Source of the DNA: Mycolicibacterium gadium | GTDB lineage: Bacteria; Actinomycetota; Actinomycetes; Mycobacteriales; Mycobacteriaceae | Direction of reading: 5' to 3' | Assembly (NCBI RefSeq): GCF_010728925.1 | Contig: NZ_AP022608.1 | Location: 4,526,001-4,590,000 of the forward strand | DNA length: 64,000 nt | Shown: piece after piece, positions 16,782-33,137 of the stretch | Layout of the letters: each line of letters opens with the position of its first letter | Position numbering within the stretch: the stretch's first letter is position 1 | Made by a program: the position numbers and the translations under genes | The notes under the pieces: generated by a model | Seen by the model: the letters and a program-made list of their open reading frames with translations, nothing else | What the model was told of the DNA's origin: nothing | Database searches by the model: none

Positions 16782-19675
16782 CTCGCCTCCTCCAGCATGG
16801 CCACCGCCACCGAAAGGCAGCGCTCCTTCACCCTGGCCCAATCGGCCTCCGCCTGCGGGCCCGACATGCGGGTGTCGTGCTCGTCTGACGGTTGGGGGTC
16901 GGCCAGCCGGCGTACCAACTGGGTGGCCACCCATTGTTTCCTCGAATCCTGTCCACAGTAGTACCGGTCCATGCCGGCCAGCACGCTTGCGGCCGTACGA
17001 GTCTCCATCGCGTCGACGAGTTCGGCAAACGCTGCGTAGTCCCGGGTGCTGTTTCGGCACATGATGAGGTAGCTCTGCAGTCGCAGCGTCTCGGCGCCCG
17101 TCGGGATCTGCAGGCGGTCGCCCGTCGGCAGTTGCACATTCGTGGTCTCTACCGGGCTGCGCCGCTCCATGGGTGCCCGCTCGAAGGCGGACGCTTCGCT
17201 CAGCGCGTCCAGCGCCACCGACAGCCGGCCCCGCCACATCGTCACCGGATGCACCGGAAGCTCGGCGGTGAGCAACGCCTTGCCGCCTGCGCCGGTGCGG
17301 TGCGTGCTGTTGAGCCGGCTGGCGCTACGCAACTGCTTGGCGGGCAAACAGCCGCTGAACGCCAATGGATCGGCGACGGTAACAGCCTGCGGGGCAAGGC
17401 TTTTCAGCTTGGCTGCCGACTTGACCACCATGCGCAGCTCCGAGCCGGTTGGCCCGAGGGACGAGAGGTCGTCGGGGATGATGATGAGGTCGGGAAGGTC
17501 GATCTTGGGCAGCGGCTTCTCGAAGTCGACCTCCGGCAGGATGCGATCGAGCCAGCGCGGCAGCCACCAGTTCCATTCGTCGAACATCGCCATCAGCGCG
17601 GGCACCAGCACCAGGCGCACCACCGTGGCGTCGACCGCGATGGCGACCGCACACGCGACGCCGAGCTGGGCGACCAGCGGCATGCCCGCAAACGCGAACC
17701 CGATGAACACCGCGATCATGATCAGCGCGGCGCTGGTGATCGTGCGGGCACTGGTGCTCACGCCGTACGCGACGGCGTCACGGGTGTTGCCGGTCTGCAG
17801 GAAGCGCTCCCTGATGCGGGTCAGCAGGAAGATCTCGTAGTCCATCGACAGGCCGAACGTCAGCGCCAGGACCAGCGGCGGGATCGTACTGTCCAGCGAC
17901 GAGATCGGTTCGAAGCCCAGTGGCTCCAGCCAGCCCCATTGGAAGACGGCCACGAGGCTGCCGTAGGCCGCCGCGACCGACAGCACGGTCATCAGCACAC
18001 CCTTGAGCGCCAGGAACACCGACCGGATGGCGATCAACAGCATCACGAACGCGATCAGCGCGACGAACGCGAAGACCAGCGGCTGTTTGGCTGACACCTG
18101 GTCGTCGAAGTCCTTGATCAGTGCTGTCGGACCGCCGACGTCGATGCGGGCATCACCGAGTCCCGGGGTGGACGGCAGCTCCGCGCGCATCCAGTCGACG
18201 GTTTCGCGGGCACCCATGTCCTCCGGGTCCACCGAGAGCACCGCGGAGAGCAGCGCGTGCCGGTAATCCTCGCCGAACACCGCGGGCGTCACCGAAACGA
18301 CGTTGGGCCCCTGGGCCATTCGCTGGCGCATCGAGTCCAGCAAGGGTTGCTTGGAGGGCGCCGATGCCGCGTTGCCGTCGGGGAAGCTCACCAAGACCCG
18401 GACCGGTCCGAGCGCGCCGGGCCCGAGCGCCTCGGCCGCGGCGTTCACGCCGCCCCGGATCTCGTGGGTGGGCTCGAACTGACGTTGCATGCTGTTGCCG
18501 AGCACCATCGAGAACGCGGGTGCAGCCAAGATCAGCAGCAGCGCCGCCGCCCCGAGCGCCGCGATCCACGGGCGCCGCATCACCCAGCCCGTCCAGCGCG
18601 TCCAGAACCGCGACTGGGTCGTCTCCGGCCGGCGCGACCAGTGCAGGTACGACGACCGCTTGGCCGCCGCCCTACCGAACGTGGCGAGGATGGCCGGCGT
18701 CAGCGTCGTCGACGTCAGAACCGCAACGGCCACCGCGAGGATCGCGCCGGTGGCCATCGAGACCAGGACCGGCGTCTGGATCAGATAGATGCCGGTCACC
18801 GAGGCGATCACCGTGAGGCCGGACAGGACGACCGCCAGACCCGACGTCGCCATGGCGGCGTCGGCCGCTTGTTCCGGGTCGCGGCCCGACCGCAGCTCCT
18901 CGCGGAAACGCATGAGGATGAACAGCGAATAGTCGATGGCCACGGCAATGCCGAACATCGACACCGTCGACGTCACGAACACCGACATCGTGGTGTACAT
19001 CGAGAGCAGATAGACCAGTCCCATGGTCACGACGACGGTGCAGATGCCGAGCACCAGCGGCATCGCCGCGGCGGCCAGCGACCCGAACACCGCGAGCAAG
19101 ACAATCAGGACGATCGGAAGGTTCCACTGCTCGGCCTGAGCGATGTCGTGTTTGGTGGCCTGGGTGGCTGCGGCACCGAGCGCGCCCTGGCCGATGACGT
19201 ACAGCTTGACCTTGCCGTTCTCGATCTCCCCGGGTTCCTCGCCGTCGATACCGACCTTCTGGCGGAGTTTCTTGGCGACGTCGACCGCGCCGGTGTTGTT
19301 GAAGTCCAACTGCAATGTGACGACGTAGGGGCGGTCGGGTTGCGGCGCCGGCTGTTGCGGATTGGGCACCACCCGGACGCTGGGCACCTCGGCCGCGGCG
19401 CGTTCCAGGAAGGCGACCGCGTTGTCCATGTCGGCGAACGACGCGTCGGCGCGCGGCGCGGCCACCAGGGCCAGGGGAGAAGCCCCCTGGTCGGGGAAAT
19501 TCTCTTCGAGCTCGCGCTGGACTCGCAGCGACTGCGAGCCTTCGACCTCAAAACCCCCGCCGGTGAGGTGACTGGACTGGCTCAGCGCGAGATACACCGA
19601 TGGCACCAGGAGAAGCAGCCATACAGCGAACACCGCCCAGCGGTATCTGCGCAGGGTGCTGCTCAAGCGCATCAT
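16778..19675 (-). CDS. mmpL11: RND-family lipid transporter MmpL11
   Basis: 965 residues from the ATG at 19675 (MMRLSSTLRRYRW), one residue shorter than the 966 I recall for Rv0202c. Twelve membrane segments lie in two MMPL repeats, with proton-relay Asp-Tyr pairs in GIAVAIDYSLFIL and GLSMDYEIFLLTR, two periplasmic porter domains, and a cytosolic C-terminal domain of about 230 residues ending SVAVAMLEEAR. MmpL11 exports wax-ester and monomeromycolyl-diacylglycerol lipids and was reported to take part in heme uptake with MmpL3 and Rv0203. In-frame ATGs at 19732 and 19762 would add poorly conserved sequence. Confidence 0.95.
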   Translation of the reverse strand: MMRLSSTLRRYRWAVFAVWLLLLVPSVYLALSQSSHLTGGGFEVEGSQSLRVQRELEENFPDQGASPLALVAAPRADASFADMDNAVAFLERAAAEVPSVRVVPNPQQPAPQPDRPYVVTLQLDFNNTGAVDVAKKLRQKVGIDGEEPGEIENGKVKLYVIGQGALGAAATQATKHDIAQAEQWNLPIVLIVLLAVFGSLAAAAMPLVLGICTVVVTMGLVYLLSMYTTMSVFVTSTVSMFGIAVAIDYSLFILMRFREELRSGRDPEQAADAAMATSGLAVVLSGLTVIASVTGIYLIQTPVLVSMATGAILAVAVAVLTSTTLTPAILATFGRAAAKRSSYLHWSRRPETTQSRFWTRWTGWVMRRPWIAALGAAALLLILAAPAFSMVLGNSMQRQFEPTHEIRGGVNAAAEALGPGALGPVRVLVSFPDGNAASAPSKQPLLDSMRQRMAQGPNVVSVTPAVFGEDYRHALLSAVLSVDPEDMGARETVDWMRAELPSTPGLGDARIDVGGPTALIKDFDDQVSAKQPLVFAFVALIAFVMLLIAIRSVFLALKGVLMTVLSVAAAYGSLVAVFQWGWLEPLGFEPISSLDSTIPPLVLALTFGLSMDYEIFLLTRIRERFLQTGNTRDAVAYGVSTSARTITSAALIMIAVFIGFAFAGMPLVAQLGVACAVAIAVDATVVRLVLVPALMAMFDEWNWWLPRWLDRILPEVDFEKPLPKIDLPDLIIIPDDLSSLGPTGSELRMVVKSAAKLKSLAPQAVTVADPLAFSGCLPAKQLRSASRLNSTHRTGAGGKALLTAELPVHPVTMWRGRLSVALDALSEASAFERAPMERRSPVETTNVQLPTGDRLQIPTGAETLRLQSYLIMCRNSTRDYAAFAELVDAMETRTAASVLAGMDRYYCGQDSRKQWVATQLVRRLADPQPSDEHDTRMSGPQAEADWARVKERCLSVAVAMLEEAR

Positions 19676-28136: not shown

Positions 28137-31100
28137 CTACATCCGCCCTTCGCGGCGCAGCAGATCCGCGGCGCTCACTCCGCCGCCGCGTCGCTTCGGC
28201 TGCTCTTCGGCGGCAGCGTTGAGTTTCTCGGTGGCAGTGTCGGGATCCTCTGCGCGTTGGGCGGGAATCGCCGTTGTCGCAGCGTCGTCGGGCTGCTGCG
28301 GCTGTGCCCTGTCCTGCGGCGGCGGGGTCCCCAGCGGGCGTCCCCTGCCTTGCAACGGGGTCCCCGGACCCGGGTCTTCCGACGCGGGCGCGCCCGGCAT
28401 CTTGCGGGTGGACGCGGTCGACGGGCGGCCGCGGCCCTCGGTGGCCGGCCTTCTGCTCGGCGACGGCGTCGGCTGACCGGCAGGCGCGCCGGTGCCGCGC
28501 AGTTCGCCGAGCCACGACTCGATCTCGCGCTCTTCCCGCGGGGGCGGGGGACCGGCGGCCGAGCGGGTGGCGGCCGCGGCGTTGTGCACGGCGTTGCGCA
28601 CCGCGTCCCGTGCGGTCGACAGGCGCGTGGTCTGCGGTTCGTCGGCGGGCGGGCGTCCGGTCGGCATGCGGGTCGTCCCCGTGGTCGACGGCGCATTCGT
28701 CCGTGGCGGCGCGGCGGCCCGGCCAGCAGCGCCGGGACGCGATGCGCCCTCCGCGGCCGGATGCGTGGGATCGTGCGGTGGGCGGGGACGGGCGGGGACC
28801 GGTGCGCCCGCACCCACCAGAGCTTCGGGGTTCTCGACGGATTCGCGCACCGCTGGCCGCTTACGCTCGTCGGGCAGCTCGGTCTCACCGAGGCCGAGGC
28901 GTTCCTGGATCCGCTTCATCCAGCGCGGCGCCCACCAGCAGTCGTCGCCGAGCAGCTTCATGATCGCCGGCACCAGGAACATACGGACGATGGTGGCGTC
29001 CAGCAGCAAGGCGATCAGCAGGCCGAACGCGAGGTACTTCATCATCACCAGGTCGGAGAACACGAACGCGCCCGCCACGACCGCGAGAACCAGTGCGGCA
29101 CCGGTGATCAGCCGGCCCGTGGTGGCTGTGCCGATGCGGATTGCCTCGGCGGTGGACATGCCGCGTTCGCGGGCCTCCACCATTCGGGACACCAGGAACA
29201 CCTCGTAGTCAGTGGACAGACCCCAGATCACCGCGATGATCAGACCGATCATCGGAGCCATCAGCGGCTGTGGTGTGTAGTTCATCAGGCCGGAGCCGTG
29301 GCCGTCGACGAACATCCACGTGAGCACGCCCATCGTGGAGCCGAGCGTGAGCGCGCTCATCACCGCGGCCTTGATCGGCAACACCACCGAACCGAACGCC
29401 AGGAACATCAGGATGGTCGTGGTGACGATCAGGATGGTCACCATCAACGGCAGCTTGTCGAACAGGGCGTGGATGCTGTCCTGCTCCAGCGCGGGGGTAC
29501 CGCCGACGGAGATCGTGAGTCCGCGCGGCGGGGAGATCGAGCGCAGCTCGTCGACCTTCTTCGCGGCGTCGTTGCGGTCGACCAAGCCGTTCTGGATGAC
29601 GCGCACTGACGGATCGGTGGACTCACCTCCACGGGCCTGCCACATCTTCGAGGGATCGCCGTCGGGCTCGATGAACCCGGGGACCGTCATGGCCTTGCTG
29701 CGGATCTCCGCGACCTGCTGGTCGGTCACCGGCTGGCCGTCGGTGTTCTCAATCACCAGCGTCAGCGGTTCGGTGCGGAATCCGGGGAAGGTCTTGTCGA
29801 AGTTCTCCTGCGCCGAGCGAACGGAGTTGTCGGGCGGCAGGTACTTCTCGCTGATGCCGCCGAGCGCCAGCTGCCCCAGCGGGATGACGAGCACGATCAT
29901 GGCGATCGCGATGGGGGCGGCGAAGGCGACGGGTCGCTTCATCACGACGTTGACGAGCTTGCCCCAGAAGCCCTTCTCGACCTCGGCGCGCGTCTTGGTC
30001 TTCTGCGTCTTCTCGGCGAGCCAGTTCAGCCACCACACGATCGGGGTGCGGGCCAGCGGGACATAGCGCGCGAGCACGACGCCGACGACAACCACGGCGA
30101 CGAAGATGACGATGCCCATCAACACCCAGTAGAGGGCGGTGCCCAGAGTGTCCTTCGAAGCCGAGATGGCGTAGGCGAGACCGCCCAGCAGGGTGATGTA
30201 ACCGAGCGTCAGGCCGATCAACGCAAACTGCGCGCCCTGCTCACCGGTCTCCCTGATCCGCTTGCGCGCCAGGTGTCCGAGCGCGATGCCCACCGGCGGG
30301 ACCAGCAGGCCGGTCGGGATCGACGCGATCGCCAACGTGTTGGTGCGCGGGTTGCCCGGGTCGGACCTGATGGTGTCCGGCTCGGCGAACTTCATCAGCC
30401 AGCGCACGCCGAGGGCGTCGACCCGAGAGCCGAGAATGGCGAGCGCGGCGGGCAGCACGGTGATCGACAGGATCGCCGCGAGCATGACCGACGCGATGAT
30501 CGCGTAGGTGATCGACTTCAGGAAGCCCTGCGGGAACAGCAACAGTGGCACCGAGGACGCCACGAGGATGACCGCGGAGAACATGATGGTGCGCCCCGAC
30601 GTCATCACCGAGCGACGTACGGCAGCCTCGGTGTCGTAGCCCTCGGCGATCTCCTCGCGAAACCGGCTCACCATGAAGAGGCCGTAGTCGACCGCGATGC
30701 CGAGACCCATGAGCGTGACCACGGGTTGGGCGAAGAAGTGCACCGGCATGAACTCGGCGAGCAGTCGCATGATGCCCAGCGCGCCCGCGATGGTCAGGCC
30801 ACCGATGATGCCCGGGAGCGCTGCCGCGACCACGCCGCCGAACACGAAGAACAGCACGACACAGACCAGCGGGATGGCGGCCACCTCGGCGCGCTTCTGG
30901 TCCTCGCCGATGGTGCCGGTGAGCTCGCTGGCCAGCGGTTGCAGGCCGGCGAGCTGGATATTGCCGTCGTTGACCTTGCGCAGGTCGGGCTCGATCGCCT
31001 GGTAGTTCTTCAGAATCGTGTCGTCGTCATCGCCCTTGAGCGGGACGCTGATGAACGTCGTCGACATGTCCGACGTCTTCATCTGCTGGACCGTCGGGTC

Positions 31101-31454
31101 GTCGCTGTTGGGGGCGCGCAGCCAGCCCACCCAGCCGACCATTTTGTCCTCGTGGTCCGCGACGAGCTGGTTGAGCTCGTCGGTGACCTTCTTCATCCAC
31201 TCGGGGTCGTCGACCTTCTTGCCGTCGGGCGGCGTGAGTATCGCCACCACGTGGCTGGTTCGGTCACGCCCGTACGCCTCGTCGGCGGTTACCGAGGCGT
31301 GGACGGACTGGCTGCCCTCGTCATAGAAGCCGCTCTGCGTGACGTTCTCGCCCAGACTGATGCCGAACACGCCGCCACCGAGGCACAGTGCAACCATGAC
31401 GCCGATGACGGAGTACCGAAACCGGTACACCATCCGACCCCACCAGGCGAACAC
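28137..31454 (-). CDS. mmpL3: Trehalose monomycolate flippase MmpL3 with an inserted DUF4190-like membrane segment
   Basis: 1105 residues from a GTG at 31454. Exports trehalose monomycolate for the outer membrane. Proton-relay pairs are Asp256/Tyr257 (GIAVDYGLFM) and Asp749/Tyr750 (STDYEVFLVSR). The first pair has the M. tuberculosis number exactly; the second is shifted by 104 from Asp645. The extra residues (about 357-473) sit in the cytosolic link between the two halves and contain LAIASIPTGLLVPPVGIALG, HLARKRIRETGEQGAQFALI and LTLGYI, the DUF4190 pattern, plus a further hydrophobic helix. The C-terminal tail (about 840-1105) is Pro/Arg/Thr-rich. It is last in the trmB-NYN-mmpL3 operon. 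Confidence 0.96.
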   Translation of the reverse strand: MFAWWGRMVYRFRYSVIGVMVALCLGGGVFGISLGENVTQSGFYDEGSQSVHASVTADEAYGRDRTSHVVAILTPPDGKKVDDPEWMKKVTDELNQLVADHEDKMVGWVGWLRAPNSDDPTVQQMKTSDMSTTFISVPLKGDDDDTILKNYQAIEPDLRKVNDGNIQLAGLQPLASELTGTIGEDQKRAEVAAIPLVCVVLFFVFGGVVAAALPGIIGGLTIAGALGIMRLLAEFMPVHFFAQPVVTLMGLGIAVDYGLFMVSRFREEIAEGYDTEAAVRRSVMTSGRTIMFSAVILVASSVPLLLFPQGFLKSITYAIIASVMLAAILSITVLPAALAILGSRVDALGVRWLMKFAEPDTIRSDPGNPRTNTLAIASIPTGLLVPPVGIALGHLARKRIRETGEQGAQFALIGLTLGYITLLGGLAYAISASKDTLGTALYWVLMGIVIFVAVVVVGVVLARYVPLARTPIVWWLNWLAEKTQKTKTRAEVEKGFWGKLVNVVMKRPVAFAAPIAIAMIVLVIPLGQLALGGISEKYLPPDNSVRSAQENFDKTFPGFRTEPLTLVIENTDGQPVTDQQVAEIRSKAMTVPGFIEPDGDPSKMWQARGGESTDPSVRVIQNGLVDRNDAAKKVDELRSISPPRGLTISVGGTPALEQDSIHALFDKLPLMVTILIVTTTILMFLAFGSVVLPIKAAVMSALTLGSTMGVLTWMFVDGHGSGLMNYTPQPLMAPMIGLIIAVIWGLSTDYEVFLVSRMVEARERGMSTAEAIRIGTATTGRLITGAALVLAVVAGAFVFSDLVMMKYLAFGLLIALLLDATIVRMFLVPAIMKLLGDDCWWAPRWMKRIQERLGLGETELPDERKRPAVRESVENPEALVGAGAPVPARPRPPHDPTHPAAEGASRPGAAGRAAAPPRTNAPSTTGTTRMPTGRPPADEPQTTRLSTARDAVRNAVHNAAAATRSAAGPPPPREEREIESWLGELRGTGAPAGQPTPSPSRRPATEGRGRPSTASTRKMPGAPASEDPGPGTPLQGRGRPLGTPPPQDRAQPQQPDDAATTAIPAQRAEDPDTATEKLNAAAEEQPKRRGGGVSAADLLRREGRM

Positions 31455-31498: not shown

Positions 31499-32182
31499 TC
31501 ACGTGTTGACGCGCGAGGTCAGCAACGATGACAGCGGCCGGAACGGCTGCAGCCAAGCCCCCTGCTCGGGCAGCGAATCCAGTCCGATCCGCGGCAATGG
31601 CTCCCGGAAAACACCAGGGATGTCCTCCAGGTCGACGAACACCAAGGTATCCGACGCTAGCGCCCAGCTCGCATGTTCGCGAAATCCGAGCACCTGCACA
31701 GGCACGCCGTCGCGGGCGATTTCCTCCAACGGCTGTTTGAATGCTTGACCGTCGGCCGAGGCCACCAGCACACCGGCCAGGCCCTCACTCCTGCGAAGCG
31801 CGATGTGATTGAGCATGTCGATGTCGACGTCACTGTCTTCATCGATCTTCGGTTTCGCGAACACCGCGAAGCCGACGTTACGCAATGCCTCCACCCAAGG
31901 TCGAACCACATCGGCGCTACCAGGGGCGATGTTCGTGAACACGGTGGCTTCGGGCTCCAGCGAGACGTCGGGCCGGGTCGCCGACAGCTCCGCCGTCCGC
32001 GACAGCAACCAGCGGCCCAGCGCGTCGAACCGGGGCCGGTGCGCCGCGGTGGGCCGACCGCCGAGGATCGAGCCGAGGCCCATGTCCAGGTTGGGCGCAT
32101 CCCAGACGAGCAGCACCCGACCGGTTGCGGGCGGCGTTTCGGCCACATCCGAAATCCGCGCGATGTCTTCGGTGAGGCTCAT
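31499..32182 (-). CDS. NYN (PIN-like) domain protein (Rv0207c family)
   Basis: 227 residues. A NYN/PIN-like nuclease fold is indicated by VLLVWDAPNLDMGLG (first acidic site), VFAKPKIDEDSDVDIDML (second) and GVLVASADGQAFKQPLEEI (third), followed by a strand VPVQVLGF. Homologues may process RNA; the target is unknown. ATGA overlap with trmB and a 44-base gap to mmpL3 make it the middle gene of a conserved operon. Confidence 0.88.
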   Translation of the reverse strand: MSLTEDIARISDVAETPPATGRVLLVWDAPNLDMGLGSILGGRPTAAHRPRFDALGRWLLSRTAELSATRPDVSLEPEATVFTNIAPGSADVVRPWVEALRNVGFAVFAKPKIDEDSDVDIDMLNHIALRRSEGLAGVLVASADGQAFKQPLEEIARDGVPVQVLGFREHASWALASDTLVFVDLEDIPGVFREPLPRIGLDSLPEQGAWLQPFRPLSSLLTSRVNT

Positions 32183-32952
32183 TGGGCCTTCTCCCAGAGC
32201 AGTTCGGTGACCACGGGGCCTGCGAGAGCCTTGCGCTCGTACTTCGTCACCGGCCGATCGACCGAGATGGGAAGGGCGTCCTCGATGCCCACGCGGCGTA
32301 ACCGCGGTTCGGCGTCACCGACCTCGGCGATGTGCTCGGCGTAACCCATGTGGTCCGTCGCGGCGTGCAGCACACCGCCGGGCCTCAGCCGGTCGGCGAT
32401 CAGCGCCATGGTCGCGGTTTGCAGCAGCCGGCGCTTGTGGTGGCGGGCCTTGGGCCACGGGTCGGGAAAGAAGACCCGCACCCCGGTCAGCGAGTCCGCC
32501 CCGAACATGTACTGCAGGACGTCGACGCCGTCGCCGCGGACCAGGCGGATATTGCGGACCCGCTCGCGGTCGATACCGGACAGCAGCTGTGCCAGCCCGC
32601 GACGGTAGACCTCGACGGCGACCACATCGATGTTCGGTTCTGCCTGTGCCATCGCCAATGTCGAGGTGCCCGCGCCGCAGCCGATCTCGACGACGATCGG
32701 TGCCTTGCGTCCGAACCAGGCCTCGGTGTCCAACGCGGGGGCCGGGCCGTCGCCGTCGCGGGCGTGCATGCCCAGCTCAGGCCAGAGCCGGTCCCACGTG
32801 GCCTGCTGTGCGCCACTCAACGTCGTCCGGCGGGTTCTGAAGCTCGTCACCCGGGGGTGCAGATGTGACGGGGGTGGTGCCCCGACTTCCGCCGGCTCAG
32901 CCGGCAGTCCCACTCCCGCGCTACCCGAAAGCATCCGTCCATCGTCGCTCAT
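32179..32952 (-). CDS. trmB: tRNA (guanine-N7)-methyltransferase
   Basis: 257 residues from the ATG at 32952; an ATG at 32994 would add 14. The SAM motif VVEIGCGAGTSTLAMA and the TrmB signature VRVFFPDPWPKARHHKRRL are unmistakable, with TKYERKALAGP at the C-terminus contacting tRNA. Catalyses m7G46 formation in the variable loop of tRNA. First gene of the operon leading to mmpL3, as in Rv0208c-Rv0206c. Confidence 0.95.
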   Translation of the reverse strand: MSDDGRMLSGSAGVGLPAEPAEVGAPPPSHLHPRVTSFRTRRTTLSGAQQATWDRLWPELGMHARDGDGPAPALDTEAWFGRKAPIVVEIGCGAGTSTLAMAQAEPNIDVVAVEVYRRGLAQLLSGIDRERVRNIRLVRGDGVDVLQYMFGADSLTGVRVFFPDPWPKARHHKRRLLQTATMALIADRLRPGGVLHAATDHMGYAEHIAEVGDAEPRLRRVGIEDALPISVDRPVTKYERKALAGPVVTELLWEKAQ

Positions 32953-33137
32953 CAAGGGGGGAGTACCCGCATCGTGGTACATATTGATACCCAACAGTTG
33001 CCTTCGACTGCTACGCCTCGACCACGGGCTGCCGGTTTACTCCCAACGGCCACAACTACCGCTCGCGACATGCCTGCGGAGGTGCCAACATCGTGGGTGG
33101 GGAAGGGGGCCACCGACCGTGGTACTCCGTGGGGAGC

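Follow-up and report, generated by a model that had tools for sequence, protein, structure and literature searches.

MmpL3 is essential and is a much pursued drug target in tuberculosis. Among solved structures, the MmpL3 chains that were found come from M. smegmatis and M. tuberculosis (PDB 6n40, 7n6b, 7nvh), and these contain neither a DUF4190 domain nor added transmembrane (TM) helices. In this analysis, a long form of mmpL3 from Mycolicibacterium gadium was investigated, within a 64,000-nucleotide stretch of contig NZ_AP022608.1 (positions 4,526,001 to 4,590,000). The whole stretch is referred to as the window; its features are numbered from its first nucleotide and those described here are all on the (-) strand. 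Compared with the solved forms, the encoded protein has a linker between TM6 and TM7 that is ~107 residues longer and that carries DUF4190 (PF13828), described by Pfam as a domain of unknown function.

The gene (28137..31454) has a GTG start and no stop within its reading frame of 1105 aa, as given by the list of open reading frames, and is assigned to NCBIfam NF052608 (trehalose monomycolate exporter MmpL3) with 1706.4 bits against a cut-off of 1400. Pfam identifies two MMPL stretches and one DUF4190 in the product, which has the 12-TM fold of resistance-nodulation-division (RND) transporters with two periplasmic domains. By analogy with relatives of known function, it is probably the essential exporter of trehalose monomycolate. 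The proton-relay residues Asp256 (30687..30689) and Asp749 (29208..29210), which we take to lie in TM4 and TM10, are unchanged across alignments of 83 and 126 sequences, window included. An earlier note, made from the window's sequence, had located this pair correctly; its numbering of 256/645 for M. tuberculosis fits M. smegmatis instead (offset of 104 after the insert). For the M. tuberculosis chain 7nvh, the match ends with an offset of 109 (863 versus 754), placing the second Asp near 640, and the M. tuberculosis pair is presumably 251/640.

Alignment to the M. smegmatis chains is continuous to residue 356 and picks up again at residue 476 against 369. The insert occupies residues ~357-474 (30033..30386), in place of a ~10-residue VPFFRNWKPM or VPFLANWPFS; in the alignment, the ordinary junction reads ...VRTLLR-VPFFRNWKPM-RVYLEWL... 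and that of the long form ...VRWLMKFAEPD-[insert]-LARYVPLARTPI-VWWLNWL.... The codons of long and short genes match well to residue ~354 and then from ~478 (four pairs). Within the insert, DUF4190 is matched at residues 374-426 (30177..30335; 45.1 bits against a cut-off of 35, E=8.5e-12, profile positions 8-60 of 62), and hydropathy shows three hydrophobic stretches. The first of these, segment A (residues 373-396; 30267..30338), is a helix that in the model is broken at the invariant Pro386. It is followed by the basic loop RKRIRETGEQG (residues 397-407; 30234..30266), which is probably cytoplasmic, by segment B (residues 408-432; 30159..30233), a predicted TM helix, and by segment C (residues 434-464; 30063..30155), another predicted TM helix, which lies beyond the DUF4190 match and would return the chain to the cytoplasm. 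A helix at residues 466-483 (30006..30059) then leads, in alignment and model, into the linker KTQKTKTRAEVEKGFWG common to short MmpL3. The earlier note had described an extra block at about residues 357-473, with a DUF4190 pattern and about three hydrophobic helices, as an insertion relative to ordinary MmpL3, and in each of these respects its description agrees with the alignments, the profile match and the hydropathy.

The long form is widespread in the genus. With the insert and its flanks as the query, the insert was found in 69 of 396 genus genomes, an even draw that includes the window's genome, at E<=8.7e-50. The next genus match has E=4.9e-19, and among the matches listed the weaker MmpL3-sized frames match in the shared linker tail only; 11 of the 396 genomes gave no match at E<=0.001. 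Named loci (the best 80 of 261, and so biased to the window's relatives) comprise 46 long and 34 short forms, the long ones including those of M. tusciae, M. iranicum, M. aurum, M. vaccae, M. novocastrense, M. bacteremicum, M. parafortuitum, and M. hodleri. Database entries with the domain come also from M. gallinarum, M. phlei, M. doricum, and M. litorale; a different M. litorale strain (L075) has the short form. A database search recovered 155 proteins over threshold with the insert region, with both Pfam domains in all 120 of the matches listed, and the MMPL and DUF4190 pair is already present in databases as Pfam annotations. In a survey of 301 genomes of the family, the full insert was present in nine, the window's included, all from the same genus, and among the matches listed the other family genera have DUF4190 only in frames of 111-676 aa.

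Even the short linker is absent from two Rhodococcus-type sequences (L197, L198) and from L149 and L153, labelled 'M. abscessus-like' in this analysis; their junctions read ...RRVDALGFKFMRK-TKSSEEIENGMWG... and ...DALSIKRFSR-TKSRE..., respectively. Counted from these linker-free forms, the TM6-TM7 point has three states, with zero, ~23, or ~130 extra residues. The short linker may itself be an earlier addition, to judge from the linker-free sequences.

The explanation that accounts best for these data, and which on balance is considered probable as a whole, is that an ancestral rapid-growing Mycobacterium acquired a stand-alone actinobacterial DUF4190 in mmpL3, at the point where a flexible cytoplasmic stretch joins TM6 to TM7. 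The domain would supply a re-entrant hairpin (segment A) and a span (segment B), and the additional span C would bring the chain back to the cytoplasm, so that TM7-12 keep their normal orientation. Long and short linkers would now be two alleles that species swap through homologous recombination, for which the conserved DNA of TM2-6 and TM7-12 provides the arms. The insert would most likely pack at the rim of the transporter, outside the proton relay and the path of trehalose monomycolate, and serve there as an accessory membrane anchor or as a site at which partners or lipid domains dock; long-form MmpL3 could thereby gain one more contact, with partners or with a membrane domain at the growth zone.

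With regard to topology, the structural matches listed for an AlphaFold2 model of the window protein include M. tuberculosis MmpL3, on which 714 of 717 residues can be superposed at 1.7 A, and therefore both halves are predicted to keep their normal orientation. It follows that only two of the three hydrophobic segments should span the membrane, and the argument in the earlier note, that an odd number of added helices requires one to be re-entrant or paired otherwise, holds. The most plausible reading of the insert is a single re-entrant hairpin together with two spans. Segment A is likely to be the re-entrant one, because it is followed by a basic loop (lysine plus arginine, mean 3.81 and minimum 3 in 47 of 47 long forms) and the loop between B and C is acidic. 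The confidence of the model (predicted local distance difference test, pLDDT) is 77.7; an earlier model with a pLDDT of 65 has a nearly identical helix order. A sequence search of solved structures with the insert alone gave a best E of 0.4 and no usable match.

Conservation of the insert was assessed in an alignment of 124 rows, 47 of which are long forms. Residues G382, L384, P386, G393, H394, A396, R397, I400, G407, G414, and Y419 of the DUF4190 signature are invariant in all 47, as is the motif GH-AR--I------G between two hydrophobic segments. The insert is in frame in every one of the 47, and there are no partial inserts among the 124 rows, which were picked as open frames, so that broken genes could escape. 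Across 16 close pairs, the ratio of divergence at codon positions 1+2 to position 3, a crude measure that uses no neutral model, is 0.19 for the insert, 0.17 for the first and 0.13 for the second periplasmic domain, 0.20 for block 1-36, 0.09 for TM2-6, and 0.08 for TM8-12. These values suggest that the insert is constrained, less so than the TM blocks.

The main rival explanation is that the insert is a spacer, tolerated because almost anything can stand in the linker, with selection keeping no more than a harmless fit to the membrane. The three length states of the linker would suit a spacer, as would the novocastrense-type inserts (L023, L027, L033, L034), which share just 39-47% identity with the inserts of the other ten groups compared, despite cores that are 76-90% identical, and the inter-repeat linker of the M. 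tuberculosis structure is unresolved (PMC8752444). A spacer would, however, leave the invariant signature residues, the first-periplasmic-domain-like constraint and the lack of partial inserts among the open frames without an explanation, and it is considered rather unlikely. The divergence of the novocastrense-type inserts may reflect fast change or a second donor.

Alternatively, the insert may lie near the cytoplasmic gate and tune coupling, lipid entry, or assembly, thereby altering the response to ligands or inhibitors. It does precede the helix before TM7, and changes in the linker loop are named among inhibitor-response variants in two reports (PMC8752444, PMC12930390). A role in transport regulation is nonetheless improbable, given that the Asp pair is intact and that the model of the 12-TM part is that of an ordinary MmpL3; moreover, in windows over the TM-coding DNA the two close long/short pairs L029/L060 and L027/L160 are 81-99% identical, which shows no wide adjustment to the insert, although it is no test of one.

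That the linker states have been exchanged between species is indicated by conflict between the trees of mmpL3 parts. All of the trees were built with LG+G4 and no mixture; those for linker states were quick searches, and those for insert groups and for the approximately unbiased (AU) tests were careful ones. On the tree of MmpL3 minus the insert columns (119 of 124 rows, five identical rows having been dropped), the linker state changes at least 6 times, with 5 changes forced by starred branches. On the tree of two flanking genes (112 of 124 rows, without four long forms lacking both flank genes, three tandem copies, and five duplicates), it changes 11 times, 4 of them forced. Nine inserts (L015, L017, L029, L035, L037, L039, L040, L041, L053) form one clade with support of 100/99, which residues 1-350 reject (log-likelihood 204 lower, p-AU 5e-66). 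The insert in turn rejects the grouping of L039/L040/L053 with L042/L047 (log-likelihood 55 lower, p-AU 2.3e-4); as group means, these two sets are 88% identical in the core and 63% in the insert. A single vertical gain without later switching is ruled out by the 6 and 11 changes on the two trees. Likewise, the short forms nested among long forms in the core tree (L059, L060, L063, L160) have the sequence VPFFRNWKPM, which is absent from all 47 long forms, and so they were not produced by loss of the insert; plain deletion is ruled out by the junction alignment together with the codon comparison. In the four genes checked, the GC content of the insert, overall and at third codon positions, is near that of the rest of the gene, and recent foreign DNA was also rejected on this ground. 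A new observation here is that the insert behaves like an allelic cassette, and homologous exchange over the conserved TM-coding DNA would be the simplest account of the conflict.

There is a second diverged block in mmpL3, the first periplasmic domain (residues 61-165; 30960..31274), recognised from identity profiles and clustering. The 124 rows fall into nine clusters at a cut of 0.35 and 7 at 0.40, the number of classes varying with the cut. The 47 long forms are in three clusters: one of 27 rows combines 5 long with 22 short forms, one of 9 rows is long throughout, and one of 63 rows has 33 long and 30 short forms. Between the two largest, identity is 41% in residues 61-165, against 87% in TM2-6 and 93% in TM8-12, with 70% in the second periplasmic domain. 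Both of these classes occur with both linkers; all four combinations are thus present, which requires recombination or repeated origin. This supports the exchange of linker alleles, though it lies outside the finding on the insert itself. Neither the DUF4190 linker nor the first periplasmic domain has a known role in proton coupling. It is tentatively possible that mmpL3 of rapid growers is a modular, recombining gene whose two parts pass between species as alleles independent of each other. Such exchange would fit the exporter to local partners or to types of mycolate, or would let it evade something by which it is recognised.

In three loci (L017, L042, L047), a second, short-form mmpL3 is present as an open frame immediately upstream of the long gene (910, 987, and 1023 aa, respectively). 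These tandem copies are nearest to L142 and L133, whose genomes gave one mmpL3 match each. Short frames beside long ones are what would be expected if both forms were once adjacent genes, of which one or the other was kept in each lineage. Such hidden paralogy is very improbable and is rejected, since the tandem copies are outside the clades of nested short forms and belong to other first-periplasmic-domain classes, and since it leaves unexplained how one insert clade comes to be on different first halves. An assembly or frame error at 30030-30400, against which the earlier note had advised a check, is refuted with practically no room for doubt by the open frame and by the homologous insert in the 46 long named loci and 69 genomes.

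As for the donor, searching with the insert returned five small DUF4190 proteins over threshold, two of them from Nocardia (proteins of ~55-175 aa were visible to the search). The Nocardia proteins match the insert from NPRTN to LGY, with 53-56% identity over ~62 residues. Unlike the insert, these proteins (P0124 and P0123, 105 and 160 aa) are outside any transporter, and they share with it the core NPRTN...GH-AR--I--TGEQG...LGY. On sequence similarity, they are its nearest named stand-alone relatives, and a related actinobacterial protein may have been the donor. The window's own genome also has DUF4190 proteins over the Pfam cut-off (L119-L121, L123), none of which is an RND pump. They contain the same domain as the insert and, as its nearest source, they were rejected: the best reaches 37.4 bits and 39% identity, whereas scores in other family genera go as high as 57.3 bits. 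One own-genome DUF4190 frame, of 463 aa, is presumably a ppiB-type prolyl isomerase. In L120 (G000:C1:1376410-1376574), which we take to be a prolyl-isomerase-like protein, DUF4190 precedes the enzyme part.

The Nocardia protein P0123 is a CrgA cell-division protein fused to DUF4190. CrgA is reported to bind MmpL3, not via its C-terminus (PMC6656915). The fusion and the binding together are a hint, and no more, of a docking function for the insert.

Several points weigh against acquisition, allele exchange, and docking as set out above. The insert evolves faster than the TM blocks (0.19 versus 0.09 and 0.08), and its third-position divergence is also the highest. In the flank tree, 12 long rows (the hodleri group, L026, L036, L039, L040, L042, L047) form one starred clade, and inheritance has therefore been partly vertical. 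The core tree is a mosaic in its own right and is disturbed by the divergence of the first periplasmic domain, and the clades submitted to AU tests were picked after the trees were seen. The segment before A is net acidic (lysine plus arginine 1.43, aspartate plus glutamate 2.13) and so does not help with the topology of A. Across residues 351-480 the pLDDT is 66-83, and AlphaFold2 was trained on MmpL3 structures, so that the fit of the halves is expected and the model would be no independent test of the insert. The putative donor matches moderately well, and no source was traced for segment C.

In a literature search to which subscription literature was mostly inaccessible, no paper naming DUF4190 or PF13828 was found, nor any joining MmpL3 with mosaic and homologous recombination. 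A conserved hinge domain that is absent in some close relatives and has apparently been exchanged provides natural experiments on the role of the TM6-TM7 linker, and the insert in MmpL3 offers a first lead to the role of DUF4190. When long-form species such as M. aurum, M. vaccae, and M. phlei are used as surrogates, a standard MmpL3 should not be presumed.

The flank tree was based on the marker genes at 31499..32182, presumably encoding an NYN-domain protein in the position of Rv0207c, and at 32179..32994, which we take to encode a trmB-like methyltransferase. The window contains another MMPL-family gene (17558-19540), a 997-aa open frame with two PF03176 matches, which by its position is probably mmpL11.
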